From positions 558,001 through 622,000 of the forward strand of contig CAWUHX010000147.1 of NCBI GenBank assembly GCA_963922205.1: a stretch of DNA of 64,000 nt, in the 5' to 3' direction. Positions 9,501 to 61,413 of the stretch are shown piece after piece. The notes beneath the pieces are model-generated. The model was given only the letters and a program-made list of their open reading frames with translations, searched no databases and was not told the DNA's origin. This DNA is from Romanomermis culicivorax (Eukaryota; Nematoda; Enoplea; Mermithida; Mermithidae). The translations under genes were made by a program, and so were the position numbers. How positions within the stretch are numbered: the stretch's first letter is position 1; each line of letters begins with the position of its first letter.

Positions 9501-9656
9501 CACTGGAGAGAGCCGCTGAAAAAGCAGGTGGTATCCGTGAGCAGGTTAAAGCACTTTCGTTACGAGACCGGCAGATGGCTGCAGTCTAACGAGGTGTCAT
9601 CTAAGGACACGCAGTTTACTGTAGATTCGAAAATTAGTAATTATAAACTGCGGTAG
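3540..9656 (+). CDS. gag-pol: Ty3/gypsy-like Gag-Pol polyprotein (element 1)
   Basis: One uninterrupted frame of about 2,038 codons has Gag and Pol fused without a frameshift. An Arg/Ser-rich part is followed by the Gag capsid-like region (about 4040-4500). Next comes a variant zinc knuckle, C-x2-H-x4-H-x4-C (4968-5009), then an RG-rich stretch (5100-5175). The retropepsin has its DTGA active site at 5649-5660 and LILGTDFL near 5860. Reverse transcriptase carries YIDD at 7092-7103, and RNase H begins with QTDASG near 7540. The integrase has an HHCC zinc site (8541-8672) and catalytic D, D, E at 8754, 8931 and 9039, ending in a GPY/F-type module (RWQGPYVV, about 9435). All catalytic residues I can check are present, so this is a young or recently active copy. 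The frame opens at a TTG; the true start is probably the ATG at 3003. Confidence 0.93.
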
Positions 9657-14000: not shown

Positions 14001-15240
14001 GACGGTTGCTTCGGCTAAAGTACCTAGTAAATCGTCTGCATCTCAGGTAAGTGCAACGATGAAAAGTACTTTAGCTAAGCCCGTGTCTAAAGTGGATAAG
14101 ACTTCTCAGCAGGACCAGAGCAGTGCTTCAGGGAAAAAAGTTGTTTCTAAACCCTCTACGTCGGAACCGACTAAATCGGTCAAGAGAAGTAGAGATAAGG
14201 AAGTAACTTTGGAGTACCTAAGTTCTGTTTTGAGAGACTACTGGGATGTCCATAAGAAGTTTCCCTTGGTGAAGGGAAGAATAGATTTTTCGACACCGGA
14301 GGTGATCGAATTTTTTGCTCAGGATATGCCAGATGATAATAGGAATCAAATCATCTGGGCATTGGTGAATAATGGAGTAGAGGAGCTTTACGAGAGCTAT
14401 GGGGATCACTTTGATCATCAAGGTGGTTTCCTGTATGATCATGTAAACGTTCCTGAGCCCATTTGGGAGTATATTTGGCTCAAGTTCATGCCAAATTGGT
14501 TTCATCATTTTGATGCGGAAATAGTAATGGCAGCCGTGAGATACTTATGTACCATGGTGTTGCTAAAGTTAGAACAGCAGCAGTTGGGCCCAAGACATAT
14601 TGGTGCAATTGATGCACGGGCCAAATCATTTGTTACGGAGAGGTATTATTCTATCTACCTGCGGGGAGAAGGTAGTACTGCATTCAGGGAAGCGTATGCC
14701 AACCGAATGCAGGAGCACCAACAAACTGCAGTAGATATGGCAGCAAAGAGAAGGTTGTCCGACATGGTTCAGAAATTTTCTGGTAAATTCCAGAAAGCAG
14801 AGGATGAGGAGGGGCAACCCTTCAAGATTCCAATGTTAACGGAAAGACAACCAAGAGATGCATCCAGGACTAGGAGCCAGCACTCGCCACAATCGTCTCA
14901 CTCGCAGGGTCGGCACCAGCCTGGAGTATTCAAATTACCGTATGCGAATCAACAAAGTCAAGGTAGGTCCACTACCTCAGCTTCTGGAGTATCTTCCATA
15001 AGTTCCACTCAGGGCTCGTACCAGAGGGGAACTGGAGGGGGATATGGCCGAGGCTGGGGTCAGGGGCAGGGTCAAGGAAGACCCTTCAAGATGGTTATTC
15101 CGCAACCGTATAGAGGTCAGGGGATGGGCGGACCCCCTCGTGCGGCCCAACCTCGGGGAGTTTATGGGGGATTCCTCAGGGGTCGTGGAGCTCGGGGTGG
15201 TCCCTACCCTCGCCATGGTAGCTTGCAATATGGCGGTTAA
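11086..15240 (+). CDS. Retroelement ORF2: DEDDy 3'-5' exonuclease with RGG-rich tail
   Basis: An open frame of about 1,385 codons lies downstream of pol on the same strand. Its first 200 residues form an RNase D/WRN-like DEDDy exonuclease. ExoI is FDTE (Asp 11122, Glu 11128), ExoII is LVGYNLVTD (Asp 11341) and ExoIII is YSALD (Tyr 11653, Asp 11665); all four acidic residues and the tyrosine are present. About 500 residues of unknown fold follow, then a Gln/Glu-rich predicted coiled coil (about 13370-13500), a Ser/Thr-rich low-complexity part, another globular stretch (about 14200-14800) and a Gly/Arg-rich tail (15000-15235) typical of RNA binding. The first ATG (11266) is after ExoI, so initiation probably depends on splicing or an upstream start. 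It sits where env lies in errantiviruses but shows no signal peptide or membrane segment. The family link is from motifs only; the role is unknown. Confidence 0.8.
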   Translation, partial: DSRFRGQPVIGFDTEKVTQEYVSKVFATSGVDNPKGKELARVISFSTVTGDTFVVDTTTIMPKEWMLIHELLDSDMLLVGYNLVTDLVAIWNVNGAGRNHQDVDLTAEIKYRIASSYGRYYDVAKVGDQMNRRFLAMSRKLGLCPETFKLKGLFTELYLADIGYFQIDFRQRAQRERFCRHTLTQFEIRYSALDAYYSLLVFLAFFHYELAMEVEVGFQYFPHDLMKADQIQIMAYKLYRFFNMIHGENFPQTFCGSPEVEELQSSAIYHVMRQEAYARMAAQMDTSFGGYVEYSFPHYEANPKRGREVSIPKGIHPDYTVKEKSKNVDGNDTVSEDEEFEEALSEKQIRTRIMKKVIDMVNRGKSFSRLDEPVSMVLYENYVRYRKETKQLLEIPCLEVDYHEYEPVRISNGKDSYVRQHWSMDIAPYSEILIEDNFKNLESVCNKVPLTFHLFWPACREEAEEYLTSLLDHNYLRSFSPEGKEQLLKMLWRGDRYGQYLSFLNSLPVTEVHTPTKGDAITCWGNRFGFLPIRFWPKTKSWEQRPVDKRKHLAECLQYKDNPYCYQRFYFPQIAVRVPGLRYPIDMGEDATKENQKKSVLAYQPEYVPGYEPPFFEPILPSDAPGFTITHIGDKVVVTPSGKQPAVPVTGTEVSKTVSQQSGVDMSSLDQVQGMQAEPVAAKAQQQAIPADRNNPIDLNQVGDDLEVAKEVTVESLIQSDQEAQVTSLVDQTESLLSGMDVRAEQMLDESNLITIAASPTIEEIEARLREQAEKEIERQKEILTKQLAEQKARLDQQQKQLEIVLAGFTAQPTPLAAPTVMQAPAKPPTAYHIPKLPAQPASTQAIQPAVSKVTPTVQVAPRDPSIDGGIPGMYTAEEVRKFRAEGRTDDQIKRLGRRKLTRKANRAKKREEEDVIEISDGEGEQTGSSTSVDLKFAGSTTLLTDSTKSKTGTTPTSLMPGTKSSTSQVQSTVASAKVPSKSSASQVSATMKSTLAKPVSKVDKTSQQDQSSASGKKVVSKPSTSEPTKSVKRSRDKEVTLEYLSSVLRDYWDVHKKFPLVKGRIDFSTPEVIEFFAQDMPDDNRNQIIWALVNNGVEELYESYGDHFDHQGGFLYDHVNVPEPIWEYIWLKFMPNWFHHFDAEIVMAAVRYLCTMVLLKLEQQQLGPRHIGAIDARAKSFVTERYYSIYLRGEGSTAFREAYANRMQEHQQTAVDMAAKRRLSDMVQKFSGKFQKAEDEEGQPFKIPMLTERQPRDASRTRSQHSPQSSHSQGRHQPGVFKLPYANQQSQGRSTTSASGVSSISSTQGSYQRGTGGGYGRGWGQGQGQGRPFKMVIPQPYRGQGMGGPPRAAQPRGVYGGFLRGRGARGGPYPRHGSLQYGG

Positions 15241-18385: not shown

Positions 18386-19700
18386 TCAATTTTTTATGTA
18401 GTTCTGCCATCGTGTAGTCTCGTAGCGAAAAATTTTCAGCCTACTTGCTGAAACCTTTTGCCGTAGCAAAAGATTATCATAACGTGCAATTGTTATCACA
18501 TTATCTTCTAACCTGGAAACATCAGTCATAATGAAGGGTCCTTCCCAAGTTAAGATTAATTTCTTGTGCTTATCAATTTTAAGAAGTACCCAATCATTTT
18601 CTTTAAAAACCGAGGTTTTAATTTTCTTGTCAAAATATCTTTTGCTAGCTTCCACTGCTTTCTGAATATTTTCAGCAATAATACTATAAAGCCTGGTCAA
18701 GTGGTTGGTTAGGATGAATTTGTATGCCTCATAATTTATGCGCGTTACTTTTTTGAGAGCTTTCATCAAATTCATCCCAAACTTTGCAACATGGCCCTGT
18801 AACAACGCAAATCGCAAAGCCTTCATCACAGGGTGTGGGGTCGCATTATAAGCAAAGACCACTGGTTTGAGATATCTTGGACAGCTATCAGGTTCACTTT
18901 TAGCTACTTTTCTCAGCTGTTTTATTAAAGTTTGGTTGAACCTCTCTACCATACCATTACCTTGAGGGTGGTAAGCAGTAGTGAAGATCTTCTTACATTC
19001 CAATAAATCACAGGCTGATTTCATTAAATCTGAAGTAAAACAAGATCCATTATCACTAAGGAGTTTCATCCAAGTTCCATGTCTGAATATCATGTTTTCT
19101 AGGAATGCATTCAACATCATTCTCAGGAACTCGGCTGGTGCACTTTTCAGTCCAAAGGGCATCTTGAACTGAAACAACCCTTCTTGGCACAAGAAAGCAG
19201 TCTTTTCTTTACTGCCCTCTTCCATTGGCACTTGCCAATAACTGGACTTGAGGTCAAGAGTAGTATAAAATTTTGCTCTCTGGAGGCAGTCCAGATAATC
19301 ATCCCTTCTGGGTATTGGATATCAATCATCCTTCATTACCTTGTTCAAGCATCTAAAATCCACAACTGGCCTGAGCATCCCATCTTTCCCCCCTACTATG
19401 AATAATGGCCCCACCCAAGGCCATCTGCATGGCTCTATGACTCCCTTATCCAGCATTTCCTGCACATCTGATATATGGTTGTCCTTCAATGGCAGCTCTG
19501 TAGTGATGTTTCACCACAGGACTAGCATCACCTGTGTCAATTTTACAAATTAGATGAGGAGTAGTTGTCAGAGGATCATTAGGTAGGCTAAATACATCCT
19601 GGTTATTCATGAGTTGCCGTATCACCATCTCTTTCTGTTTTTCTGACAAAGTAGCTGTTGAGGTCATTCTATAAAAAGCTTCGAGAAACACAACTCCATC
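18386..19700 (-). pseudogene. RT-integrase remnant of Ty3-like element 2
   Basis: On the minus strand the piece begins near 19700 with the tether and start of RT (FSLPNDPLTTTPHLICKIDT), closely like [20 protein letters not shown] in element 1. After shifts it reaches the RT palm block [14 protein letters not shown] and MPFGLKSAPAEF. It then jumps directly into the integrase core at [18 protein letters not shown], so YIDD, RNase H and the HHCC domain have been deleted. The remaining integrase has the second Asp (LLSDNG) and the Glu ([10 protein letters not shown]), and ends with the GPY/F-like ILTWEGPFIMTD. The RT-integrase join is in one open frame (18386-19231). The element is dead. Confidence 0.85.
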
Positions 19701-20172
19701 AAATTTTGATTCCTTGGCATCTAAAATACCTTCTAGGCTATTTTCTCCACAATTTTCAACCAGAACCTGTATTATTGGAGATCATCAATATCAAGTCTTC
19801 ACTCCAACCATCAACTATAGTATCATCTACACTAAATCTCGTTTCTGAATCATCTCCTTCTGCGATGATTCAATTCATCATATTTGCAGAGGATTTGTTC
19901 CACAATTTAGCTTTCAATAGTTGGTCTGTTCCATGTGGGATTTAAATTCTATTACATGACACCACAGGGACTAGATCATCCAGCTGCTGGATTGCCAAAT
20001 GTTGATCTTCTTCAATAGGTTTTTCTTCCATTGATTCTGCTATCATCTGATTATGCATCTCAACTATTGGAATCACTTCCTTATCAGATGTCAACAAATC
20101 AATACTTTTTTACACCCATCATCCTGATTGAATGTTTTCCGAAATCTATTACTGTGTTGACTTCTAGATGTG

Positions 20173-20709
20173 CTAGGAAGTCTGTCCAGATGTGCCAGGA
20201 AGTCCCAGTATCAAATTTCCTGCGGATCCTGGTATTATGATAGCCTTAACTGGAAGGCATCTATAATCGCATTCGATTTGAAATTGAATGTAACCATGTG
20301 CACTCACTACTTTACCATTGGCAACAGTGACTTTCAGGATCTTAGGGTAGGCCATATACTCCAGTCCAAGTGATTTTTTCAAGAAATCACCCAACATAAC
20401 TGAACACTGAGCTCCCCTGTCAATAAGTGCCTTTGCAGTAGTGGAACACACAGTTACCCTAGTGTGAAATGGCTGCATTCTAGGGTATCTAGCTGACATA
20501 TTCAGTTCCTCTGTAGTCCCCTTTCTACCATACTCGGCATTGCATTCTATTTCCAGCACATTTTCTGCTTTTTCCATGGCATAGTTATGTAGGCCACACA
20601 ACTTCATCTCCATCATTGGTTCTTGCTGTAAGCTATTAACACCACTAGTTGAGGGTTGGTCTGTCTGCCCGGAGGCTTGCGACTGACTAACTACCTTCTG
20701 TGGAGTCAA
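20173..20709 (-). pseudogene. Retropepsin region of element 2
   Basis: The open frame aligns with the protease of element 1: TAKALIDRGAQCSVMLGDFL against [19 protein letters not shown], then YPKILKVTVANGKVVSAHGY and IIPGSAGNLILG. The active-site triad DTG is changed to DRG here, so the enzyme would be inactive even if made. The frame breaks after LILG. It lies between gag and RT in the order expected on the minus strand. Confidence 0.8.
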
Positions 20710-20799
20710 CAGAGTATTTGAACTCTAATTCACAACTACTGGATGTGATTCGGTCCTGGTAATGTCAGCTAGGTGGTAGCCTGTAACAACCTGATCTGC

Positions 20800-22184
20800 T
20801 CCCAGACCTTCTTCAACTTTATGTATTCCTGGAATTCGGCATATTCTTGCGAATTTTCTGCCTCATCCTCAGGAAATGAAACTTGATAAGCTCCCCTTTC
20901 GCCTTCATTACCAAAACCAACTCTGTTTCCTCCATAATTTCCTCTGAAATTAGCCCTGAAATTTCCTCTACCTTGGAAATTTCCAAAACTTCCTCAAGGA
21001 TGACCTCTTCCAAAATCTCTTCCACTATTTCCACCCCTTCCACGATTCTGTAGGCCCTTATAAAAATTCAAAATCCTACAACTAATCATGTTGTGGGTGT
21101 TATTTTCATGCTAAGTACACCATGTTTGCTGCTGAACCTCTTGTTGACTTTTCCTTTTCATTTTATCAACTTTCTAAGTTAAAGCAGTTATGGCTTCCTC
21201 TTGGGCTTTTGCAGAGTTCCTAATTTCTTCATAACATTGTGCCATTTTAATAAATTCCTTATATAAAGCCACCATGAGAGAGTCCTTTTTTTGCTCCTCA
21301 ACAGGCTTTTGCCATTGCATTATGCCCTGCCGCAGAGGTAATTCAAGTACTTTCTCATCCACTATATCTATCAATTGATTTTGCCAAGATTGCATCCGAG
21401 TTTGCCTTTCTGTGTTTGGTCTTCTAAAGTCCTTATTGCATTTTCGGGCGCTTTCATTAGGCCTTCAGATTACATTCACATCGGCTTGCTGCCCCACAGA
21501 AATTTCCGTTTGTGCTGTATTTATCATAATGGGCTGTTCTAGTGGCCCAAAAGTTCTAATTGCATTTCTGTACTTTAGCTCTATCTCATAGACTGCTTGC
21601 AAAAGATCATACAAATTTTTGAATATCGCTATGTCTTTCTGCAGTTCTAATTGATAAGTTAAAGAATTTCTCTAGAAAAAGGTTTCAATGATCACTTTAT
21701 TTTTAAACTCTTTAGTTTCACTCTGGTAAATGAGATTCACATGTGCTCCAACCCTTTTCAAAAAATTGGTTGCAGCTTCATCTGGTTCCTGTTTAATGTC
21801 CAACAAGTTTTTTTTGAGCATATCGAGGTTATCTGGAGCACAATAATTCAAAATATTGTCTCTGGCTTCCCTATATGTTGTTGACTCTTCAGCCAATTCT
21901 TTGGGCAAATCCTTTGACAATCGGGTTAATCCTTCCAGTCTAACCTCATTGGGAGTATTCTTCCCAAACTCACCTTCTAGCTCCACTAGGAAAGCAAGAA
22001 CCTGTCTACTTGGCATATCTGACTGCAGTAATTTTGGTTTGATAGCCCTTTCAATGTCATAAACAATTGGGCCTACTTGAGCCAGATTGACCCATAAAGC
22101 CGGATCAATCAGAATCATTTTAGGCATAACCTGCTGCCTAACATTTGGGTTTTCATCCCTAATACAACTGCTTTGTTGTGACAC
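20800..22184 (-). pseudogene. Gag remnant of element 2
   Basis: The frame at 21672-22184 encodes a Gag capsid-like domain (ESTTYREARDNILNYCAP, then FLKRVGAHVNLIYQSETKE). Its residues line up with [17 protein letters not shown] and [19 protein letters not shown] of element 1. Downstream on the minus strand are a glutamine-rich helix region (21174-21395) and a knuckle-like HENNTHNMISC near 21090-21130. A Gly/Arg/Asn-rich stretch (about 20890-21050) follows, as in element 1. Frameshifts separate these parts. The 5' end abuts the probable LTR at 22188. Confidence 0.8.
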
Positions 22185-22187
22185 AGT

Positions 22188-22679
22188 TGTGTTAGGATTG
22201 GTGGCACAATCGTAAGTAAATCGAGTAGACCAGTGTTTAGACTTTATTTATTTCAGTGGAGCTAATAAATATAATACAAATAATGTGGCAGCCAATTGAT
22301 ACTATAAGTATGTTGATGGCAATTTGTCCTATCTCAAACAAATAAAACCAGAACTCTAATACAAAAATAAATCACCTTTTATATAAAGACAATAAAAAGA
22401 AAATGATAATAATAATATCACAAAAATGCAGTTATTCCGGATCAAAAGAGTGTTGTTCTCTATATCACTTCCGCATGAGATTTAACTGGCTCAAGGCTTT
22501 GATTCCTTATCAGATCATCGACTGTCGGCTTTGATTTATGATAATTGTTTTTGTTTTCTTAATCTTCTTTAATTATTTTATAATCTTCTAAATTTTTTGT
22601 GTACTATTGCTTTAAGCAATTCTTCTATGTTCTATTTCATTTTTATTTTGTTTTATCACTAAGGTGTGACCTTGTGACA
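22188..22679 (-). repeat. Probable 3' LTR of the glycoprotein-bearing element
   Basis: Read on the minus strand, a purine tract (aagggaggc, about 22680-22690) is followed by a segment starting TGTCACAAGG and ending CCTAACACA, so it has TG...CA ends. Inside, in the right order, are a TATA box (TATATAAAAGG, about 22375-22386) and an AATAAA (about 22244-22250). That fits U3, R and U5 of an LTR of about 490 bp following the integrase end at about 22740. A matching 5' copy near 29 kb was not found, so the call rests on internal structure. Confidence 0.5.
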
Positions 22680-22705
22680 TAGCCTCCCTTAAAAGTCAAA
22701 CGCCT

Positions 22706-23667
22706 TCACTTGTCTACTATGAAGATTATAACTAGAGTGAGGCTTTGGCTTAGGAAGTTCCAATTGTTTTGGTTCAGGGGCAATTTTACTTTGTTATCTT
22801 CATTCCTTGAGTAATAAGGCTTCATCCGATTTACATGTATATTTTCAAATTCATTCCGTTTTGCTATATTTTGTATTTTTACGTTTGGATACATAACTTC
22901 TATCACTCTATAGGGTCCCAGGTAGAGAGGTTGTAATTTCTTTGCTAAACCTTCTCTAATGACTTTGGATTCTTTTAGAAGCAGATCATTTTCTTTGTAG
23001 GAGGCATCATTCTTTTTTCTATCGTATTTTATCTTGTATTTTCTTTGAGTAGTTTAGGCGTTCTACGAAACAGTAGCTGGAATGGTGTGTATCCAGTTGT
23101 TTTGTTGATATGGATATTTGATGCAAAAACTGCAAATGGCAAATGTTGATCCCAATCCTGATGGGTATTTTGATCAACATACATTCTGATGCAGACAATC
23201 AGGGTTTGATTTGCTCGCTCCACCTCCCCGTTAGAAATTGGATGGTAGGGAGTGGTGTGTTGCTTTTTTGTTCCCATGATTTTTGTTATTTCCACCATTA
23301 ACTGTGAGGTAAAATCAGTTCCTCTGTCGGACTGTAGTATTTTCAGGGCTCCATGCCGGCAAACTATTTGTGTCACAAATAATTTTGCAATAGTATGTGC
23401 TGTTATATTCTGTGTTGCATAAGCTTCAATGTATTTGGTGGAGTAATCAATGAAAACAACAATAAATCGATTACCATTTTCTGTGATTGGTAGAGGACCC
23501 ATACAATCAACACCTATACGATCGAATGATTCTGTAGCTTGAATGGGCTTTAAGTTAGCAACAATTTTCTTTCGTGATGGCTTATTCACCTGACAATGTT
23601 TACATGTTTTACAATAGTCTGTGACATTTTTAGATAAATTTTCCCAAAAATATTTTGATTTCAGCAA
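22706..23667 (-). pseudogene. Integrase of glycoprotein-bearing Ty3-like element
   Basis: The minus-strand frame begins within the zinc-binding region (CKTCKHCQVNKPSRKK). The whole catalytic core follows: the first Asp in GVDCMGPLP, the second in LQSDRGTDF and the Glu in NGEVERANQ. A break near 23029 precedes the C-terminal part, which has LQPLYLGPYRVIEV and HVNRMKPYY, a GPY/F-like module. The core looks chemically intact, but shifts at both ends make it a pseudogene. It is only distantly like the integrases of elements 1 and 2, so it belongs to a different lineage. Confidence 0.85.
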
Positions 23668-24581
23668 CTGTATAGTTTTGCAGGCACTGTAGTGTCTTCC
23701 AAGTGGGTTATCATGGTGGTTTCTATTAGCAATTTCTTCAATGATTTTGGTATCACAACCTTAGGTACATTATCTTCTAGTTTATACACAACATTGTTGT
23801 TAATTTCATAGTCTGTATTCATTTTTTCTAAAATTTCTTGTTTTGCTTTTGCTAATGAGGTGTCTTGGTTTTGCAAGGCCTCTATGTCAATCGAATTTTC
23901 CATTACATTGCAAATGTAAATGTGTGATTTCTTCGTGTTGAAAAGATTGAATGAATCTGACAGATTTGTTTGTTCAAGCAAGTCATCTTTCCATATTTTG
24001 CTTGATTCATTATTTGGTTTTTGGAACCATTTTCCAAATGTTCCTTTCTTAAAGGTGTTTTCGATTTCTTCTTTGCAAGTATTAATTATTGCACTTTCCT
24101 GATTGTCTATAGGATGAGGTTTGTATAATAAACCTAATGCTAATATGGGTTTGTGTGATCCAAGCTGTATTGTTCCCATTTTCATATCAAAGTTTACAGT
24201 ATCAAATTGATACAAGAAATTTGTTCCTAAAATAAAGTTTACTTTTGCTTCTTTTTGGATATGTACAAGTATCCATGTTTTTACATTGTTTTCAAGTTTA
24301 ATATTGATATAAGCTGATCCAACTAGTTGTAGCTTTGTTCCATCAGCCATACATGGCTGTATGTTATTTGCAATTATTGTGGTATTCAGGATTATCTGAA
24401 AAAATTCTAATTTAATGAGGGAAATTGCTGACCCAATGTCAAGCATAGCAGTTATCCATAACTTATTGTTAGCAAGAACATCAATTTCGGGTGATTTAGT
24501 TGTATAAAGATCACAATCGTGAGGCATGTAATCATCATTTGTTATTGTACAAACTGAAATTTTAATGTTAGATTTTCTCAT
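23661..24581 (-). pseudogene. Second retropepsin-like domain plus integrase N-terminus
   Basis: This 306-codon frame lies between RNase H and integrase, where Ty3 elements normally have only a short linker. Its first 150 residues have the retropepsin pattern: AMLDIGSAISLI at the active-site position (DIG in place of DTG), ADGTKLQLVGSAYINIKL, and NFILGTNFLYQFDTVNFD. The second half, ending in KVVIPKSLKKLLIETTM and a His-containing THLED, is the start of the integrase zinc-binding region. A separate, normal protease of the same element lies at 26293-26760. This is therefore a duplicated, probably inactive protease-like domain, or remains of a nested relative. Confidence 0.7.
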
Positions 24582-24647
24582 TTTTGGGTATTCAAACGAA
24601 TCGTTTTCAATGTCAAAACATGGTTTTGCTTGTCTATCAGGAAGTCG

Positions 24648-25142
24648 TCATAAACAATCTGCATTTTGATTTTTGCAATCTTTTCTTGGTTTTATGTCCA
24701 AGTATACACCTGATAAAGCTAATTCCCATCTAGCAATTTTTGCTGAAGGGTTTTCTTTTCCTAGAATGGCTTTTACTGCTGTGTGATCTGTGTGGACCAT
24801 AACTTCTCGTTGATAGAGGTACGGTAGGAAATATTTGACAAATTCAACTACCGCAAGTGTTTCTAATTCTGTGATCGGGTAGTTCTTTTCCGCAGCCTTT
24901 AAAGTTCGGTTAGCATATGCTATTGGATGCTCATAATTATCATTACCTATTTGAGTCAAAATTCCATCAATTCCTTCAATCGACGCATCTGTTTGCAAGA
25001 TGAAGGGACTCTCAAAATTTGGATGTGCAAGAATAGGTGGCTTTATTAATTTTTCTTTTAAGAGTTCAAAGGCTTTTTGTTGTTCCTCACTCCCCTTGAA
25101 TTGCTCTTCCTTTTTAAGGAGTTTAATGAGTGGTTGGCACAA
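24648..25142 (-). pseudogene. RNase H region of glycoprotein-bearing element
   Basis: The frame carries the RT connection (EEQQKAFELLKEKLIKPPIL), the RNase H start [18 protein letters not shown], the central ELETLAVVEFVKYFLPYL and HTDHTAVKAIL, ending at NQNADCL. This is the order seen in Ty3 RNase H (Asp, Glu, Asp retained). It follows RT on the same strand and is separated from it by a stop and shift near 25150. Confidence 0.85.
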
Positions 25143-51136: not shown

Positions 51137-51685
51137 TTAAAACTGCTCTTTAAAATTTAAAATGTAATTATCTTTGAAATTCAAAATTGTGTGGATATCT
51201 GGGTGCGCTAGAAAATCGGTGCCAATGATACATTGGTCGTTTCCATCATCGTCGAGGATCAGGCATTTGATCATATGCTCTCGGGACGCGGATTCCATTG
51301 TAACAACTACTGGACCATAAGCGTTGACAATGGCGCCATCGGTGACTTTGATTTTTCCACAAATCGGGAGTTGGAGCGATTGCTTGTCGAAAGCGCGTTT
51401 GACTAATCCTGAGGACAAAACGGAGCATTGGGCACCGGTGTCGATGAGCGTGTGTGCTTTAACGGCTCCAATCTTGATTGGAATTTGGAAAGCTCTTGTG
51501 AAGGCGTACTTGCGAACAAAGGATTTTGAAGACGGCATGAGGTTATCGATTTGACAAACGGACGAGCAAATTGGCATGGGTCCTGAAATGCGCGGCCCAT
51601 CGCGTTCCAACAGACTATGCCGGGGCTGACAATCGGTGCGGTGGAAGCGATTTCTTAAGACGGGATGACCATATTGGCTGCCCAT
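51137..51685 (-). pseudogene. Retropepsin of a relative of element 1 (element 4)
   Basis: The minus-strand frame contains [20 protein letters not shown] (active site DTG intact), KIKVTDGAIVNAYGPVVV and a second block [19 protein letters not shown]. These match [32 protein letters not shown] and [19 protein letters not shown] of element 1 block by block. Pol is missing beyond it; the sequence falls into the AT-rich block at 51136. Confidence 0.85.
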
Positions 51686-51759
51686 GTCGATTGATTGTTG
51701 GCGCGTGTTTCAAGAGCGGGCGTTGACGCGGCATTTGGCGGCGGTAGCGTGGGTAGGGC

Positions 51760-53802
51760 TAGTTGTAACTCTGAGGACTAGGAACTGGGGCGTGATGAAT
51801 CTGTTGGTGTTGTGAAGTACGAAGCCCGCACGGCGTTGTAGTGAATATGTTGTTCCCATGGGGCCGGGAATTGATGGTTTGGATAGACAGCGTAGGTATT
51901 CTGAACAAAATCATTGGGGCGCTGTATAGAATTACGTTCATAAAAATGGTTTCGCGGGCCGCGGGCGTAGTTTGTGCCTTGTTGGGGCGGTCCTCCATGG
52001 TGGGGTCTCCAATCGCGCTGGCCACGAATATCGTTCAAGTTGGTTCAAAAATCGGCTTGCTGTGAATGGGCAGCCTAGGTTGGACGATTTGGTTTGTGTC
52101 GGGTTAGCTGTTGAGCATTTTGCCGCTTGAGCCAGATGCAATCTTTGGTGTTGTGGGTGCTGGATTTGTGAGCGTCGCACCAAAGAGCTGTAGGCTGCAT
52201 AGTGCGCATGCGATCTCGGCTGGCGGATCGATCCAAACGATTTGCATAGGGCTCTCCGTTTTGAGATTGATGGCATGAACTTTGTTGTCTGTTGAGAGGT
52301 AGCATTTCCTCGGGACGTTGGCGTGACTTTCATTCTTCCTAGTCGCGATCATATCGCTGAATCAACTGTTCTAAAAGCATCTCCATGCGGGGTGGCTGTG
52401 GCGGGGGCGGTTCTATCACTTGTGGTTGGAAAGAGACGAATTTAGGGGGCGGTGGCGCCAAATTCTGGGGTCTGCTGTCCGTGGAGGGAGAGCGCTCCCC
52501 GTAGCGATTTTGAGGGCGGTCCATGCTGTGGCCGCAGTCGAAATGGCGGTCAAAAGGTTGCAGGGACTTCGGCCGTTGTACTTCGGGGTCGGCTTGGTTC
52601 ACGAGGATAGGTCTTTCCACGGTGCCAATTTCGACTTTGGTTGCATTGAGGACACTATGGGCTTTAGCTACGGCTTTGGCCAATTGTTGGACATCCGTGA
52701 AGCCTTTCGCTTGTTCCCCAATTGTTAATTGATAGAAAACAGGCATTTTTGTCAAAAAAGTGTCAATTACTTATTTGTGCCAGAAGGTTTGGTCTTCATC
52801 CTGATACAATAACTGTACATAAGTCATTACCTTACTTAAGAACATGGCGGGTTCCTCTCCAACTTCCGGGGTGATTGATGCGAGCTAGCGTTTGAGAGTC
52901 ATTTCATTGCAATCCAGGGCTAGTTGGAACATGAGCAAATTTTTGGCGTCTTCGTACCGAGTCATATCTTGGATCATATCACTCGGCGTATCACGGGTGA
53001 GTTGGCGTAGTGCACTCATTCTTACATGGTTGGAGGCATCGTAGCCAAACTCGTTTTCGAGAGGGATGAAGAAGCGTAACAGATGTTTATTTGTCGTGGC
53101 ACCGTCGATAATCAACGGGTGCATGTTGTCGACAATTGTTTTGATGCGGCTATCCTCTTCAGGATGAGATGTGTGGGGCATATTGTACCGAGGTTGCGGG
53201 TGGTCATAATAATCGTCCGGTGGATAGTCTGAGAAACCGAAATGGTTTGCCGCGGGCGGTTGGCGCCTTTGAAGCGCGGAACGGTGTAATTCTTCTTCGG
53301 CGCGTGTGATGCGGGAAAGTTCGTTATTGTACAGGGTATCCGTCGACGGCGCTTTAGGTTTGACTTGGTTTGGCAGTCGCCCAAAGATTTGAGCCGGTTC
53401 AGTTTCATGGAGAGTTTCGTTTGGGATATAGATATCTCTCATTTCCTCGCCGTGAAACCATGAGGACACCGGTGGTGGTCTTGGTGTGGGCGGATTGCGC
53501 CCGTTAGTTGCGGCGGCGGTTGTAGAAATTAACTGTTGCATTGGCTCTGCGAGTGGGGCGAAGTGTGCGTTTGTAACTTTTGTTTGTTCTTGGATTTTGC
53601 GTTGGACGCATAGTTGCTGGGCTTGAAATTGATCGGAAACGGCGCCGATGATTTGATCAATCGTTTGTACAGTAGGAACGTTATTTGTTATGCCCATTTG
53701 ATCAAAACTCAGAGCACGGCGCGGCGCTGTGGCAGTGTTAGGAGAACTAGATCGCGACAGTAGACGTGTGAGGTCCGGGGGTGTATGGCTTACTTTTGGC
53801 AT
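51760..53802 (-). pseudogene. Gag of element 4, broken by in-frame stops
   Basis: The likely ATG is at 53802. One frame can be followed for about 2 kb through several nonsense codons (at 52885, about 52757 and 52339, and more downstream). It has a Pro/Ser-rich N-terminus and a capsid-like region (FGYDASNHVRMSALRQLTRD, then MTRYEDAKNLLMFQLA). A Pro-rich linker precedes the variant knuckle [14 protein letters not shown] (C-x2-H-x4-H-x4-C, near 52135-52180), and an Arg/Gln/Asn-rich tail follows. The order and the unusual knuckle match element 1. The frame is kept although stops are many, so decay is by point changes more than indels. It shifts frame only before the protease. Confidence 0.8.
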
Positions 53803-54080
53803 CTTTTTTGTAGGGTATAGTAACCTCTTCTGTAACCTTGGGCGCAGCTGTGGGGGGGTCCAATTGTTGAATCTTTGAGCATTTTCGGATGCAACAGGGA
53901 AAGAAAGCGTACAATCCAAGCGGTCACCAGTGTTGTATTTGGTATGTTGGGTCCGGGCGATGAACCGTGGGCAGGATTGGGATTCCGAGGTTGCATCCTT
54001 AATGTACGTGTTTCCCACACCCACATTTACCCGATAAACTGATTACTTGTACTTAAGCCCCAACACTAAAATATCCCACC

Positions 54081-54785: not shown

Positions 54786-56221
54786 TGTCGAAATTAGCTG
54801 AATATTGAAATGATTATAGAAATCATACCATAAAAAATAGTTTGCATATGGATATGCATAACTCTGATCTGAGTGGGAAATTATGCATGTTAAGATGAAA
54901 ATTAGAGTTGAAATTCAAAATGTTTTCTATCTATTGAGATGTCAAGAACCCACTTTTTGGCTGAAAACAATTGATTTTTGGTATTTTGATTGGCATTAAT
55001 AATGTTCAACAGGTGAATCAACTTTTGTCTAGGTATCAAAGGTCCAATCATTTAGAATTAACCCTCGCTTGTCAAAAATCCAAACAGTTGACAAAATTAA
55101 ATATGTATTTCAATTGCCACAACCTGAAATTTTTGATGGCGCCACAAACAGAACTTCAGTCATAAAAATTCGAGACATTGATAACTAGAAGTCAAAACTA
55201 GTTGTTGAATTAAAACTTCTGAAAATTGATTCTTCAAAAATTTACGCCCATTTTTATCCCTGTTAAAAGTTTTCGACCAGTCTTAGAAGCTGACCGACCT
55301 GCAGTTTTCCTGAGAATTTAGTGCCCAAAAATTAAAAAACTGATGTAAGCTCTTCTCTACCATTCTTCTTCAAGCTTGTATTTTGCGCGTCATCAAATTT
55401 TTTTGTCTAATTTTTAGTGCAGAATGACCACTGCTTCTGCTTAATAAAATGCACATAATGATGTTTTCATTTAGTTTTGTAACTAAAAAGCGCTATAACT
55501 TAGCAGTAACCCGTCCATCCCACTTTTAGCTGACGTTTTCCTCTTTTCTGCTTCCTACGACGCCACTCACATAATGATTTGGGCCAACTAAAATGCGGAC
55601 CCCGACACGGACAGGTTGCGGACAGGCAAAAAATATGCCAGAATCTGTCAGAATCCGCCTGTCCTGTCCTGCCCACGTTTTAGAGACATTTTTGTTTGTC
55701 CGCGACCTGTTGGTGTCCTTGTCCGCGTTTTACTCACACCTTGATGATTTCGTGATTTAGTTTCTATCTTTTTAACCTAATTTACCACTATTTTTAATCT
55801 CCTATTTAGACGTAATAAACTATTATTATTATTATTATATAGTTTTATAACTACATTCTAATCAATAATTAACTCGAATTCCAGCCAGAGAGCAGAGCAG
55901 GGCTTCTTCAAAAACATCAGGAAAAAAACGTCAGATTTCCGGGGGCGGGTTCTCCTACTCCTCCCCTCCCTCCTCCAAATTCCTCTACTTCACTACATTT
56001 TTGCCCGACTTGTAAGTTGTAACAATGTTTGCTGTTTGGCCCTCCACTAGTTCTCGAGTTAATTATCGATTCCCATTCCTAATCCAGAACCAGAACGCCA
56101 TCAAAATTCAAAAAATCAGAAAATTTTCAAAAAGTTCGGCAGGTAAATTTATACAGTAACTTCGGAATATAGGCAGCTGATCACATGTCTGTGCGCATAA
56201 ATATCTACCTGCGACCCTTTT
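54786..56221. other. No recognisable gene
   Basis: Apart from the inverted repeat at 55589-55733, this stretch holds only short frames and short A/T microsatellites such as (ATT)n near 55820. Confidence 0.4.
55589..55733. repeat. Small inverted-repeat element
   Basis: Left arm 55589-55627 (starting taaaatgcggac) and right arm 55696-55733 (ending gtccgcgttttac) are imperfect inverted copies of about 38 bases, GC-rich in AT-rich DNA. The internal part repeats cctgtcc units. The structure suggests a MITE-like or foldback element of about 145 bp. Confidence 0.5.
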
Positions 56222-56222
56222 C

Positions 56223-56373
56223 AACATGAAAATTTCATGTTGGTGCAACATGAAAAAAATACAAAAATGATGGTATGTTATTTTTCATGTTAGTTCAACA
56301 TGAAACTTTTTCTTATGGAATTAAACATGAAAGTTTCATGTTCGAGAAGAAGTGAACATTAAAAGTTCATGTT
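56223..56373. repeat. Cluster of AACATGAAA/TTTCATGTT palindromes
   Basis: At least three near-perfect palindromes occur: 56223-56241 (aacatgaaaatttcatgtt), 56323-56342 and 56355-56373. Half sites and an inverted pair lie between them at 56247-56311. All use the same core word CATGAAA and its complement. The cluster ends 70 bases before the first gene of the capsid cluster. Confidence 0.7.
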
Positions 56374-56442
56374 GATTAAACAAATCGTTTTTACAGTGTA
56401 TTATCCAAAGCAAAACCTAAGCAGCGCAAAGCTATTATACAA

Positions 56443-56700
56443 ATGGCTGACGACGATCTGATTCTGTGCTTATGCGAGTGCATACTTAACACATTAAACG
56501 GAAATATAAAGGTCCCACCCAAAAAAGTTGAGGGATTAAAAAAGCATAAATACAATTTGAGAATTCTAGCGGATAAAAACACAAAGTTAAAGGATAGAAA
56601 AACGATACTCGAGCAACAAGGCGGTTTTTTGCTTGCATTGTTGGCTCCAGTTTTAGGAATAGCAGGTCAATTAATAATTGATGCTTTGAAGAAAAAATGA
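56443..56700 (+). CDS. Adenovirus pX-like small protein of the Polinton remnant
   Basis: An intact 85-residue ORF starts with ATG. It has an acidic start, a Lys-rich middle and, after GG, a hydrophobic segment (FLLALLAPVLGIAGQLIIDA) ending in four basic residues. Small proteins with a GG-F/L-L hydrophobic C-terminus lie next to capsid genes in Polintons and adintoviruses and have been compared with adenovirus core protein X. That comparison is from memory of the layout. The next gene follows after 73 bases on the same strand. Membrane or DNA binding would both fit the composition. Confidence 0.55.
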   Translation: MADDDLILCLCECILNTLNGNIKVPPKKVEGLKKHKYNLRILADKNTKLKDRKTILEQQGGFLLALLAPVLGIAGQLIIDALKKK

Positions 56701-56773
56701 TGCACACAAACAAAATGATTCTAGTTCCTCACAATGTAGCCAGGGGGGACGAACCTTTAACCTGGACAAGGAA

Positions 56774-57385
56774 ATGAATAAAATTTTGCAAGATAGGCAG
56801 TTGCATACTGACTCGAAACTAATTCTTTATAATCAAGTGTTACATAGGTATATGAAAGTAATTGATGAGCAAACAAAACCATTTCAGGTTGAGGCTCGAG
56901 AACCCCCCTTGTTAGTACCTGTACCTGTACCCAATGAACCTGCAAATACTCCAGGAACGTCATCACATACTGACACTTTTTTAGAAAGCGCTTTATCTGT
57001 AATTCCGAAAAAATATCAAATATTGGCCAGGGAACTTTATAATTACGTGAAGAAAAATCCTCACATGCAGTGGTCTGATGCCGGGGAGATGATCATTGAT
57101 GGAAAGAAAGTTGCAGGGACAAATATTTTTGATTTGATTTCAGATTTTTCCTGTGATAGCAGAAGCAGACTGCCTGCTATCGGTGCTGAAATTTTTGTAA
57201 AAAACTTGCACAAAGCTAATGTTCCCCTTTTGGTTATCACGAATAAGTCTAGGTTAACTTTGCTGGATGATGACATTTATGTATCACCCTTATCGTCAGT
57301 GTCCACGCCCTCCTCATCACCCCGGAGGTCTCTGAAAAGAATAAACACAAGAACTATGCAGAATAGACAAAGTATAAAAGTATAA
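56774..57385 (+). CDS. Conserved Polinton-cluster protein of unknown function
   Basis: An intact 203-residue ORF from ATG. The N-terminus (NKILQDRQLHTDSKLILYNQ) is a charged amphipathic helix of the sort found at the start of a recurring protein in invertebrate Polintons. A Pro-rich linker follows, then a folded domain (VIPKKYQILARELYNYVKKN) ending near residue 165, and a Ser/Pro/Arg-rich tail. No catalytic motif is visible. It lies between the pX-like and pVI-like genes in one direction with short gaps and probably belongs to the late or virion gene group. The function is not known to me. Confidence 0.6.
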   Translation: MNKILQDRQLHTDSKLILYNQVLHRYMKVIDEQTKPFQVEAREPPLLVPVPVPNEPANTPGTSSHTDTFLESALSVIPKKYQILARELYNYVKKNPHMQWSDAGEMIIDGKKVAGTNIFDLISDFSCDSRSRLPAIGAEIFVKNLHKANVPLLVITNKSRLTLLDDDIYVSPLSSVSTPSSSPRRSLKRINTRTMQNRQSIKV

Positions 57386-57388
57386 AAA
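57373..57388 (+). promoter_or_regulatory. TATA boxes before the pVI-like gene
   Basis: TATAAAAG and TATAAAAA lie back to back, overlapping the stop codon of the gene before. They are 40 bases before the ATG at 57421. A short upstream ATG frame (57402, 13 codons) lies between. Confidence 0.4.
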
Positions 57389-57420
57389 GAATATTAAAAC
57401 AATGGATTTTTTTAAACAAA

Positions 57421-57849
57421 ATGCGCCAATATTACAATCCTGAAAATTTGAACGTCTGGTTACAGTACTATACTGAACAGGCTGAACAAACTGGTTATGG
57501 TAAATATACTGGATTCAAGGGTACTCCTTACCAACGGGGAGCTGGACTAGGTAGCTTTTTCAGTTCTCTATTTAGAATGGCTGTGCCCGTATTTAAGTCA
57601 GTCTCCTCCCATATTGGGAGACAAGCATTATCCACTGGTTCAAATATTGCATCGGACTATTTGAGAGGACAGCCCATAACAGAGGCTGTAGAAGAATACC
57701 GCAAAGAGGGTGTCTCAAGCTTATTAAAAAAGGGTAGTGAAGCATTGTTACAAAAAGGAGGTGCCTTGGGGTCTAGACCGAAAAGTATAAAAGCCAGTTC
57801 GCACCAGGATGATATATTTAATTCAAATAATAAGAAGAAAAACGAAAAA
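57421..57849 (+). CDS. pVI-like minor capsid protein of the Polinton remnant
   Basis: From ATG at 57421 the protein has a Tyr/Asn-rich start, then GTPYQRGAGLGSFFSSLFRM and a hydrophobic/Ala-rich helix (AVPVFKSVSSHIGRQAL) followed by TGSNIASDYLRGQPITEAVE. The RGAG-G-FF-LFR pattern with an amphipathic helix is characteristic of a virion protein encoded directly before the major capsid protein in Polintons and adintoviruses, and resembles the membrane-active adenovirus protein VI. The open frame does not stop at the end of this protein but runs on into the capsid gene (to 57954), so a stop seems to have been lost. The end point given is the ATG of the next gene. Confidence 0.6.
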
Positions 57850-59132
57850 ATGTCTCGTGTTGATTTACTCTCTTTTCCGAGCACAAAATCTGAATTGGAT
57901 TTTTTTACAGTACCACCCACGCAGGTGGTCATCAAAAAGGGATATTGGGATTAGACTAACCCTGTAAACCACATAACAAATGAGGGCCCTTATGAATTTT
58001 GAGTGCCGCCTGACCCCAACATGATGCAATTAAGTAAAAACTATTTGTATATGACATGGAAATTAACTATTCCAGCTGCCGCCGCTCATGTATTTGCACC
58101 CATTAATTTGATTGGAAAAACATTTTTCAGACAAGTTAAGCTTTTTTTAAACAGACGCCTCGTATATGACAGTGGAGACAAATATGCTTATAGAGCTTTT
58201 TTGAAACAGAGTTAAATTACAGTTACGATGCAAAAAATACCCACCTACAGTCTGCATTGTATACATCGGAAAGCGGAAAACAAATTTATACAGATGATAA
58301 CCCAGGGTTCAAGGAGAGAGCTGCTTATCTTGCAGACGGGCGTATTGTTGAAGTATCTGCTCCTCTGCACATTGATTTATTTATGCAAGATCGTTACCTG
58401 TTGAATTTCACAGAATTAAAGCTAGAATTAAAAAGAAATAACAATGATTTTGTGTTACAAAGCCCCCAGGGTATTGTTGAAGCAAAACTTGAGGTATTAC
58501 AAATGAAATGGTACATTCGTAAAGTAGAAGTGTTGGACAGTGTTGGATTGGCTCTGGAGCAAACTATGCTCCAACGCACAGCAAAATATCCCAAACGCAG
58601 AAACGTAATGATGAATTTGCATATCCCCAGCACTGCACAATCAGCACCTACATTATTTACGGGGCCATTACCTAGGCCAATGATTATAGCGTGTGTGGAT
58701 GCTGAGGCGTACAGGGGAAACCTGAAAAAATCACTCTTCAATTTCAAGTGTTACAGTATCACTGAGGTTTAAGTCATAGCTGGTGGACAAACATTTCCCT
58801 CTCATCCATTGAAACTGGACTTTGCCAATAACAAGTACATACAGGCTTATAATCAACTGATCGAAGTTCTAGACATGGCTAAGGACAACAAGGGTAATAT
58901 GATAAGCAGAGAAAATTACAAGTATGGTCAATGTTATTTCACATTCGATCTAACACCAGATGAAGATGATAGGGGGCATTGGGACTTAATAAAGGAAGGT
59001 TCAATCAGCATCGAGTTGACCTCCGCTGAAGGTATTCTCACCACTGGTATAGAAGTGATAATATATGCTGAATTGGACAATCTACTTATGATAGATAAAA
59101 ACAGAGGAGTGTTCAATGATTACAATGCTTAA
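57850..59132 (+). pseudogene. Polinton major capsid protein (hexon-type double jelly roll), broken
   Basis: Capsid-specific motifs occur in order: ELDFFTVPPTQVVIKKGYWD near the start, YLYMTWKLTIPA, RRLVYDSGDKYAYRAFL, ELKLELKRNNNDFVLQSP, KMKWYIRKVEV-type strand KWYIRKVEVLDSVGLALEQ, RGNLKKSLFNFKCYS and the closing ELDNLLMIDKNRGVFNDY. This is the hexon-like major capsid protein of Polinton/Maverick elements. Breaks: in-frame stops at 57952 and 58000, a one-base-type frame change near 58200, and a stop at 58770. The C-terminal third (58809-59132) is open to its natural stop. The length (about 425 codons) is close to the low end for the family, so little is deleted. Confidence 0.85.
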
Positions 59133-59134
59133 AA

Positions 59135-59640
59135 ATGAATACAAGTCAAATATTGGCTGTGCTAAAAAGTGACCAAGCCCTAAAACAAGTGCAAGTTGGT
59201 GTTTATCCCATTGATCTTTTGCCACTGGTTACAACAGTACCCTGCCATTTAGTGATAAACTTGGATAAGCATAACGAACCGGGATCTCATTGGGTCGCAT
59301 TATATTTTGATGCAAACGGCACGTGTGAGTATTTTGATAGTTTCGGGTCTCCACCGGTACACCATATACAACAATACATGTTGAGAAACTCAACAAATGT
59401 AAAATATAATAAAAATGTTTGCAAACATTTTTAACTGCAACTTGCGGACAATTTCGCCTATTTTATCTGATATGGAGAGTAAGAGGGGTTCCAATGAAAA
59501 CCATAACCAACTGTTTAACCAAATGCCCCTACATTGATGAATATGTCACAGGATTTATCAATGAACTATTTTTAATAAATACACCTGTATTTGATGATCA
59601 TTTTATCATTAATCAGCTATGCAACATCAAAAAGGTATAA
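59135..59640 (+). pseudogene. Adenain-type cysteine protease of the Polinton remnant, broken
   Basis: The gene starts with ATG two bases after the capsid stop. It has the catalytic His in GSHWVALYF (59288-59290), then CEYFDSFGSPP, the hallmark segment of adenovirus-type maturation proteases. The frame then changes near 59428. In the new frame the catalytic Cys follows in TCGQF (59443-59445). In the family a second cysteine usually stands two residues after Q-F/Y; here it is Arg. The tail (INTPVFDDHFIINQLCNI) is open to a stop at 59640. The role would be virion maturation by cleavage of capsid precursors. Confidence 0.85.
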
Positions 59641-59644
59641 AAGG
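59636..59644 (+). promoter_or_regulatory. TATA box before the penton-like gene
   Basis: TATAAAAGG overlaps the stop codon of the protease frame and lies 44 bases before the ATG at 59680, a spacing that fits a short-leader promoter. Confidence 0.45.
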
Positions 59645-59679
59645 AGTTGCGCAACTTATCAGTTGTATCTTTATTTAAA

Positions 59680-60435
59680 ATGTCGTTCTATATAACCTTA
59701 CCCAGCAATACAGTGAGTAATCCTGGCAATAAAGCCAGTAACTTTAGCGTACCATTGCCTTATAGGCTAATGCTCCAAGGGGACTGGGAGTGTGGATTGT
59801 GCGAAATCATTTACCCTCATACTTGGGAAAATATTTCAAATAATGACCAAGAAATCGTTATTCAACACGATTCATCTAAAAAACTGTACACTGTTTGTGT
59901 TCCAACCTCGTATTATTCCTCAGTGAAAGAACTAACTGACGCCATAACATGGACCATCAAAAACGCATTAACTGCTGATGATGAGGCTGACATCGCCAAG
60001 AGTATAGAGTTCTCCTACAATAACTACGACAGAAAAGCTAGTATCAAAATTGATAATGAAATTATTGAAAGTGTACAATTGTCATCACAATTGCAACACA
60101 TTCTTGGATTTGCCGAACCAAAAATTTTAAGTTCAACATGGTTGAAATACCCCTTTGACGTAAGAGGGGGTTCGAGTCTATGTTCGTCTACTGTAACCTA
60201 GTAGAACCCCAAATAGTGGGCGGTGTTCTCCCACCTCTCGTAAGAATTGTGAGCATAGAAAACAAATATGGGGAAATTGTTAAGAAAATATATGATTCCC
60301 CCCCACTACGTACCCATATTGGTCAAAAAATTTTCAGAAATTGAAATTTTTCTTAAAACAGATGCAAATGAATGTGTAAGTTTTGTAACTGGAAAAGTAA
60401 TTGTCAAGTTACATTTTCGAAAAAGTAATCAATAA
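59680..60435 (+). pseudogene. Penton-like minor capsid protein of the Polinton remnant, broken
   Basis: From ATG at 59680 the product begins MSFYITLPSNTVS and soon shows LMLQGDWECGLCEIIYPHTW, a block highly typical of the Polinton minor capsid (penton-base-like, single jelly roll) protein. The frame runs to about 60170, changes phase, carries on in another frame with VEPQIVGGVLPPLVRIVSIE, and changes again near 60300. It can be followed to a stop at 60433-60435. The long frame was chosen from its ATG because sequence upstream does not match. It lies 39 bases after the protease. Confidence 0.8.
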
Positions 60436-60470
60436 TTTCATTTTTTAAATGACATAAGCATGTAAACAGA

Positions 60471-60480
60471 TATAAATAGG
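60471..60480 (+). promoter_or_regulatory. TATA box before the TBP-like gene
   Basis: TATAAATAGG, 72 bases before the ATG of the TBP-like gene. An out-of-frame ATG at 60532 opens a 12-codon upstream frame. Confidence 0.4.
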
Positions 60481-60542
60481 AAGAATCAACAACAATGGGT
60501 CATTTTATATTTTAATTACTTCACCGTACATATGCCACCATC

Positions 60543-61076
60543 ATGCCCCCTACAATACAAAATATGACTGTAACAATAGAATTGGGGTGCCACCTGGATT
60601 TGAAGAAACTAAACAATGAATTCACAGACAGTGTATACAACCCCGGAAAATTCTCAGCTTTAATTTTAAAGGAGACAACCACCAAGGCGACGTTATTGAT
60701 TTTTTGTAATGGAAGAGTTGTGTGTGTGGGAATCAAAACGGCCGCAGATGCCGCCTGCATCATGGATAATTTAATGGAGGGACTACAATGTAAAGGATAC
60801 ACATGCAAGCCGAGTAATTTTAAAATTGCAAATTTTGTGGGTTCCCATACGACTGGATTCAAAATTTGCCTGGAACTATTGTGCAAAGCCTACCCCAAGC
60901 AAAGTGTGTTTGTACCTGAATTATACCCCAGCCTGACTTTCAGAATGAATGATCCCAAAATGATTGTTGTAATATTTCATGGGGGTAAACTTGTTTTCAC
61001 TGGCTGTAAATGTAAAAAGGATATGTCAATTGACTTTCCTGGTATTATGAGAATTATCTGTAAATATCGCATGTAA
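60543..61076 (+). CDS. TATA-binding-protein-like protein in the Polinton remnant
   Basis: An intact, intronless 177-residue ORF covers the whole TBP core as two repeats. Repeat 1 has QNMTVTIELGCHLDLKKL, YNPGKFSALIL and TLLIFCNGRVVCVGIKT. Repeat 2 has FKIANFVGS, FVPELYPSLTFRM and VVIFHGGKLVFTGCKCK. These match the order of TBP motifs. The asparagine of each repeat that contacts the minor groove (in QNM and ANF) is present. Three of the four DNA-wedging phenylalanines are kept (KFSAL, LIFCNG, VIFHGG); the fourth is Tyr in PELYP. There is no N-terminal extension and many residues differ from cellular TBP, so it is not a recent copy of a host mRNA. It follows the penton-like gene by 108 bases on the same strand. 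It would bind TATA promoters or compete with host TBP; which is unknown. Confidence 0.88.
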   Translation: MPPTIQNMTVTIELGCHLDLKKLNNEFTDSVYNPGKFSALILKETTTKATLLIFCNGRVVCVGIKTAADAACIMDNLMEGLQCKGYTCKPSNFKIANFVGSHTTGFKICLELLCKAYPKQSVFVPELYPSLTFRMNDPKMIVVIFHGGKLVFTGCKCKKDMSIDFPGIMRIICKYRM

Positions 61077-61087
61077 TAAAAAAGTGA

Positions 61088-61178
61088 TGACGTCATTGGG
61101 CCATATTGGCTGCAAAACTATAAAAACAAAAAAGTGGCTTAATTGTTGACATTATTTTTAGCTAGCTAGGTGACGTCA
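61088..61178. promoter_or_regulatory. Two perfect CRE/ATF palindromes around a TATA box
   Basis: TGACGTCA occurs at 61088-61095 and again at 61171-61178, each followed by att. A TATAAAAA lies between (61119-61126). The pair follows the TBP-like stop codon directly. Adenovirus early promoters also use ATF/CRE sites, so these may be promoter elements of the lost right part of the element. Confidence 0.45.
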
Positions 61179-61413
61179 TTCGGGTTAATAAACTTTTCGA
61201 GCAAGCTAGGTCGATTTTTTATATTATGAGCCCTGTACTTAAGGATAGGACGAAAAATGCTATGTTCAAAATGAGGACTCTGTAGACCCCCTATACTACT
61301 TACTGACATTTGAGAAAAAATAAGTGATTTTTGGAATGACGAGAAAATCACATGACAAGATACTGATTTTATGGTGGCCTTACGAAGAGGGGGGTCACTT
61401 CTAACATGGAAAT

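Follow-up and report, generated by a model that had tools for sequence, protein, structure and literature searches.

A TBP gene in the Polintons of a mermithid nematode and its possible part in element transcription

A TBP gene within a broken element fragment

Romanomermis culicivorax, a mermithid nematode, is a mosquito-killing roundworm. The window analysed here is a stretch of 64,000 nucleotides from its genome (contig CAWUHX010000147.1, positions 558,001 to 622,000). On the plus strand, positions 60543-61076 hold a TBP ORF of 177 amino acids (aa) with no internal stop. Pfam model PF00352 matches it with E 7.1e-38 (128.8 bits against a curated cut-off of 22.9) in two stretches that correspond to both repeats, and a search of solved structures returns yeast TBP as a match to residues 2-176 (E 1.5e-32); chance, or a misreading of the ORF as TBP, is ruled out by these two matches. 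NCBIfam TBP models also match, with scores below their cut-offs; a PHROGs search gave nothing useful. With the window TBP alone, the matching database proteins are two R. culicivorax gene models, which fuse pieces of the ORFs next to TBP in the window to TBP pieces. The protein is the core alone: repeat 1 begins at residue 3 and there is no N-terminal domain.

TBP copies in this genome fall into families A-D, which belong to one Polinton lineage, and a diverged fifth family (E) in a second. The equivalents of Asn69 and Asn159, which we take to be the minor-groove Asn pair, are present in all tabulated rows, including the window copy. Phe99, Phe116, Phe190 and Phe207 are presumably the wedge residues; the window copy has Phe99, Phe116 and Phe207, and Tyr in place of Phe190. 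No other aligned family A row has this change: the residue is Phe in L011, L012 and L013. The sequence-only reading had described a complete two-repeat TBP signature with the DNA-contacting Asn and three of the four wedge Phe, a description borne out by Pfam, yeast TBP and the residue table. All four wedge Phe are present in A_L011 and in family E; Phe116 is replaced by Tyr in B, C and D. Of the residues that we assume to form the TFIIB stirrup (E186, E188 and L189), E188 and L189 are retained in the tabulated A-E rows and E186 is missing in A-D. K138 and Y139, presumably on the TFIIA side, are not retained in A-D.

The gene lies in an element fragment: window positions 56398-61098 align with element copy L011 at about 95% DNA identity. 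All features of the fragment are on the plus strand. It begins with the remnant of a 114-aa ORF (56389-56688), cut at its left end and recognised by homology to L011, which has no frame-breaking indels relative to that copy. The remnant of a 230-aa ORF (56697-57367) has two. A TATAAAAG box (57373-57380) precedes a pX-like ORF (57421-57819), which is in part homologous to L011 and has one frame-breaking indel; a further box (57786-57793) precedes the capsid gene (57850-59129), which is about 90% identical to L011 by tblastn in two frames and is broken by one such indel. The broken adenain-type protease gene (59135-59637) also has one, and its Pfam Peptidase_C5 match is below the cut-off. A third box (59636-59643) stands before the penton-like gene (59680-60444), which is 78.5% identical to the L011 penton by tblastn and is broken by three frame-breaking indels and in-frame stops. 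Between this gene and the TBP gene lies TATAAATAGG (60471-60480), 72 bases before the TBP start and common to L011 and L012. The sequence-only reading placed a penton-like gene upstream of TBP on the same strand, 108 bases away. The adjacency stands; the gene, however, is broken, and its homology stops at 60444, 98 bases short of the TBP start, which is close to the distance claimed.

About 4.3 kb of L011, including pPolB, has no counterpart between window positions 61098 and 61169. The right-hand piece of the element beyond this deletion (61169-61300, plus strand) is 92% identical to L011 sequence about 4.3 kb further on. The side of the element that carries the ATPase and integrase is missing from the fragment. 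Relative to L011 there are eight frame-breaking indels across the five neighbour genes and none in TBP; the zero is unremarkable, because the other genes together have only eight. The dN/dS of the window TBP is 0.91 against L011, 1.08 against L012 and 0.38 against L013. No selection on the window TBP was found in the comparisons with L011 and L012, and these ratios indicate that it has probably been drifting since its split from them. The window copy is a broken relic, probably without any present function.

Several other features accompany the fragment. CATGAAA/TTTCATG repeat units lie immediately to its left (56220-56370) and may belong to a further mobile element at the break. An open gag-pol frame of 2038 aa (3540-9656, plus strand) has aspartyl protease, reverse transcriptase, RNase H and integrase domains, and further retroelement pieces occur on the minus strand at 18386-25142 and 51137-54024. 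A 1363-aa open frame (11149-15240, plus strand) has no Pfam match at E 0.01; by eye, its N-terminal part is a putative exonuclease-like region.

TBP across element copies

The assembly searched comprises 359,112,060 bases in 595 contigs; PMC10879605 describes R. culicivorax v2 as 359.1 Mb in 595 scaffolds, with 6.5 Mb of polintons. The TBP list has 150 matches, from 150 of 259 candidates scored, and the penton list 150 matches, from 147 of 1158 candidates scored; each merges to at least 143 places. Pieces less than 600 bases apart were merged, and the two genes were counted as adjacent where the penton match ended between 300 bases inside and 1500 bases before the TBP match.

A penton-like match lies directly upstream on the same strand at 115 of the 143 TBP places listed, within 15 bp in 77 of them. 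The gene is not generally absent from other copies, a check which the sequence-only reading had proposed: TBP lies downstream at 115 of the 143 penton-like places listed. When 18 further rows are included, host TBP among them, 118 of 158 TBP places lie behind a penton. The 28 listed TBP places with no penton match include the window and E-type places; the window is counted there because the family B query missed its decayed family A penton. By reading of the ORF list, a penton-like ORF of at least 100 aa precedes TBP in 17 of 20 10-kb stretches chosen around TBP copies, the exceptions being L015, L017 and L024.

The fuller copies of families A-D have the gene order ATPase, 114-aa ORF, 230-aa ORF, pX-like, capsid, protease, penton, TBP. 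pPolB follows next after TBP in family A; in B-D, TBP starts 2-3 bases past the penton stop. The element TBPs are minimal two-repeat proteins of about 170-195 aa with no N-terminal domain. The TBP gene is a regular resident of these mermithid-nematode Polintons.

The assignment of the cluster to the Polinton/adintovirus type, made earlier from the window, agrees with the rve integrase, A32-like ATPase and pPolB found in its relatives. L011 pPolB matches Pfam DNA_pol_B_2 (6.9e-41), the rve integrase is found in L017 (4.3e-14) and L015 (3.2e-13), and L026 has an A32-type packaging ATPase (Pox_A32 9.4e-6, above cut-off). The putative adenovirus-type cysteine protease matches Peptidase_C5 and C48, in both cases below the curated cut-offs. 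AlphaFold models of the capsid and penton are weak (mean pLDDT 39 and 59), and for this reason the Foldseek lists obtained with them serve as support only. The top entries in these lists are capsid and minor capsid proteins from adintovirus, virophage, adomavirus and giant viruses. For one model they include a Cotesia bracovirus protein (1.9e-12), an adintovirus capsid (1.3e-7) and a mavirus capsid (2.8e-6); for the other, minor capsid or LO5 proteins (5.8e-7 and weaker). TM-scores are below 0.4 throughout.

Two copies have unusual structures. In L015 (4153-4932, plus strand), an open frame joins an integrase to a TBP piece, seemingly as the result of a deletion within the element copy. On contig C141, two equal-scoring TBP copies (623073-623501 and 639315-639743), each with an equal-scoring upstream penton, lie 16 kb apart; this pair is a segmental or assembly duplication.

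Selection, origin and relatives

The dN/dS ratio was calculated by the Nei-Gojobori method between intact copies; pairs within D, within C2, L018-L019 and L011-L012 are near-identical and have too few changes to read. Most well-separated TBP pairs have ratios of 0.12-0.38. Values are 0.14-0.19 for C against C2 (six pairs), 0.31 and 0.30 for L018 and L019 against L022, 0.22 and 0.24 for L011 and L012 against L013, and 0.36 for the family E pair; five of the six B pairs have 0.12-0.21, and the sixth has 0.52. These ratios point to mostly purifying selection on the element TBP between families. Identity between A and B-D is 35-39% and 41% for TBP and penton, respectively, and 75-79% for the capsid. 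The penton and TBP have diverged together while the capsid has not, which suggests that the penton-TBP module is evolving or exchanged faster.

Family E comprises the TBPs of L031-L034, and its gene order differs from that of A-D. Family E pPolB is related to that of L011 (46% identity, E 5e-170 in L035; 45%, E 1e-48 in L032), and L035 has a penton-like gene with 25% identity over 286 columns (E 8e-9). In L035 and L036 pPolB is in several broken pieces, and one stretch is duplicated in L035.

Relatives were also found in metagenomic data. P0007, P0020 and P0082 group with family E (100/99) and P0004 groups with A-D (92/98); all four come from contigs of 1.0-1.4 kb. Such TBPs may thus also occur in elements outside R. 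culicivorax. Scans of viral_contigs with A1, P0004, the L018 capsid and A4 yielded no relatives. L001, the sole viral_contigs locus obtained from P0001, was rejected as chance (a 22-residue match on a phage-like contig).

The probable host TBP is located on contig C95. It shares 77% identity with yeast TBP, whereas the A-E proteins are 31-37% identical to the host protein. The tree has 57 rows and includes 40 proteins hand-picked from 120 listed (735 found), plus P0005 and P0006; it was built without sequences labelled as giant-virus, phycodnavirus or mirusvirus TBPs. Within this set, A-D and E are placed apart from a cellular TBP/TRF group that has 93/90 support, and the host TBP groups with human TBP and P0097 (91/67). 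AU tests, on groups named after the tree was seen, reject constraining the A-D rows (without P0004) with the host TBP only (p 2e-5); they also reject a group in which A-D and P0004 are joined by the host, human and P0097 proteins (p 0.022). They do not reject a single clade that unites the A-D and E types (p 0.31). The deep placement is unsure, since there are several long branches and the program gives a warning that long branches meet.

These results bear on whether the gene is a processed copy of host TBP or TRF, captured by the element or merely adjoining it, the outcome that the sequence-only reading had named as damaging to its case. The absence of introns from the element gene would fit such a copy, since the host TBP gene is exon-split. 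Against this stand the low identity to a host protein that is itself close to yeast TBP, the AU rejection of nesting with the host, and the occurrence of the gene at the same place in many copies. A recent retrocopy of this host's TBP is ruled out by the identity and the AU tests, and a host-derived copy of any kind is extremely improbable. The gene could be an ancient acquisition from another eukaryote.

TATA boxes and the proposed role of the element TBP

The box survey covered unit-first genes at eight loci and in the window, all in TBP-bearing elements; the start used is off by some bases in four or five survey rows. In families A-D, TATAAAA occurs 34-64 bases before the start in 31 of 32 unit-first genes (114-aa ORF 5/5, pX-like 7/8, capsid 9/9, penton 8/8 and pPolB 2/2). 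The L011 ATPase start is left out of the 32; it lies inside the gene, which is cut by the stretch end, and has no box. The 230-aa ORF and the protease gene begin where the preceding gene ends, and no TATAAAAG is found in that span before either (8 starts each). Upstream of TBP itself, TATAAAT occurs at -72 in family A (3/3) and TATAAAA at -66 in two B loci; four C and D loci have no such box within 140 bases.

The boxes are strand-specific. All 27 copies of TATAAAAG in six element stretches lie on the coding strand; shuffled sequence yields 0.17-0.61 copies per stretch on average and at most 2-3, and the stretches, being related, do not count as independent. With both strands combined, the window's first 56 kb contain seven copies. 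In B-D the box continues as TATAAAAGT, mostly TATAAAAGTT; in family A the sequence after it is variable. A gene start does not follow every box, since B-D have a conserved one inside the 114-aa ORF. Family E differs: L035 has no TATAAAAG in the 7 kb beside its TBP and penton, and L036 has two, on the strand opposite its pPolB pieces. There is a TATA-like site 46 bases before L032 TBP, and none within 150 bases before L031 TBP. TATAAAAG is presumably a good box for host TBP too, so the boxes are not proof that the element TBP uses them.

The sequence-only reading had suggested that the element may direct host polymerase II to its own TATA promoters or replace host TBP. The strand-specific boxes support the idea of TATA promoters served by the element TBP; DNA binding and Pol II recruitment we infer from sequence. 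The favoured reading, which we consider fairly probable, is that these Polintons encode a TBP that loads host Pol II onto their own promoters. The protein would bind TATAAAAG boxes and bend the DNA, and the retained part of the TFIIB stirrup (E188, L189) would suffice to recruit host TFIIB and Pol II. Expression of capsid, penton and polymerase would then be driven with less need of host TFIID and TFIIA; the reduced need of TFIIA is hinted at by the loss of E186, K138 and Y139 in A-D. In B-D, the penton unit probably has TBP as its second cistron, an arrangement that would give positive feedback on late genes. Points against a promoter role are the Tyr for Phe116 in B, C and D, the loss of Glu186 in A-D, and the fact that family E has TBP, yet L035 is without TATAAAAG.

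Other roles for the protein can be weighed on the same evidence. It may act against the host, competing for TFIIB or occupying host promoters to lower host transcription or defence, while host TBP reads the element promoters. Divergence from host TBP would fit this, as would the loss in A-D of TFIIA-side residues and Glu186, as in a partial competitor, and the presumed suitability of TATAAAAG for host TBP; retention of the DNA-contact residues and the regular placing of TATA boxes on the coding strand only speak against it, and we regard it as unlikely. The tight linkage to penton (77 of the 143 listed places within 15 bp) and the joint divergence of the two genes between A and B-D, unlike the capsid, would instead suit a protein that bends or packages DNA, in the particle or in replication, and that is produced together with penton without being a transcription factor. 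Such a protein would hardly explain why the TFIIB-contact pair is kept in the tabulated A-E rows or why TATA boxes are regular in A-D, and this role is distinctly unlikely. Finally, copy number is high (at least 143 merged places), as might be expected if the host had taken over the gene for its own regulation and the elements were mere carriers. The selected copies, however, are in elements that retain structural gene sets, and the copy in the broken window element drifts (dN/dS 0.91 and 1.08 against L011 and L012), making host takeover very unlikely.

Beyond the promoter-loading role itself, a wider proposal is held tentatively, with more doubt than confidence: animal Polintons of at least two lineages may have their own core-promoter system of TBP and matched boxes, with a partial independence from host TFIID and TFIIA. 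It would go back to a single ancient acquisition, in keeping with the unrejected clade of A-D and E types, and would probably also be present outside R. culicivorax. If true, small capsid-coding transposons would be transcriptionally semi-autonomous. To our knowledge, little is known of how Polintons get their genes transcribed. An own TBP with regular TATA boxes would offer a testable Polinton promoter system and an animal-hosted parallel to the TBPs that herpesviruses and giant viruses carry; it would also bring a general transcription factor into the adenovirus/Polinton/virophage gene pool.

Among the literature excerpts covered on TBP with Polinton, Maverick, virophage or adintovirus, a coverage that excludes the main nematode-Polinton study (Jeong et al. 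2023), there is no report of TBP as a Polinton gene. A text search of PMC11071308, PMC11071296 and PMC10120064 found no mention of TATA or TBP. These elements share with reported Polintons/Mavericks and adintoviruses the rve integrase, pPolB and A32-like ATPase, and probably the adenain-like protease, the capsid and the penton-like gene; TBP beside penton and a regular TATA layout set them apart from what the excerpts covered describe for those groups. The element TBPs share with cellular TBP/TRF the PF00352 double repeat and the DNA-contact residues; they differ in their low identity to the host protein and in their position outside the cellular group in the tree.

True TBP genes are also carried by giant viruses, phycodnaviruses and mirusviruses. 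TBP genes are found in 59% of mirusviruses (PMC10132985) and, in an alga, sporadically in elements putatively derived from mirusviruses (PMC10675990); megavirus (PMC11464507) and CpV-BQ1 (PMC12085832) also have one. Those viruses have much larger genomes, and megavirus has its own RNA polymerase (PMC11464507); here the carrier is a short capsid-coding animal transposon. The herpesvirus protein KSHV ORF24, which has homologues, takes the place of TBP at late promoters and works there with host Pol II (PMC7498053). The likeness is that of a virus-encoded TBP-like factor thought to serve viral promoters with host Pol II. By the same source, ORF24 was identified through fold threading; it binds promoters of the TATT type, contacts the Pol II CTD through an N-terminal domain and acts together with five further viral proteins. 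The Polinton TBP, in contrast, is recognisable by sequence, lacks that domain and belongs to elements that use TATA.
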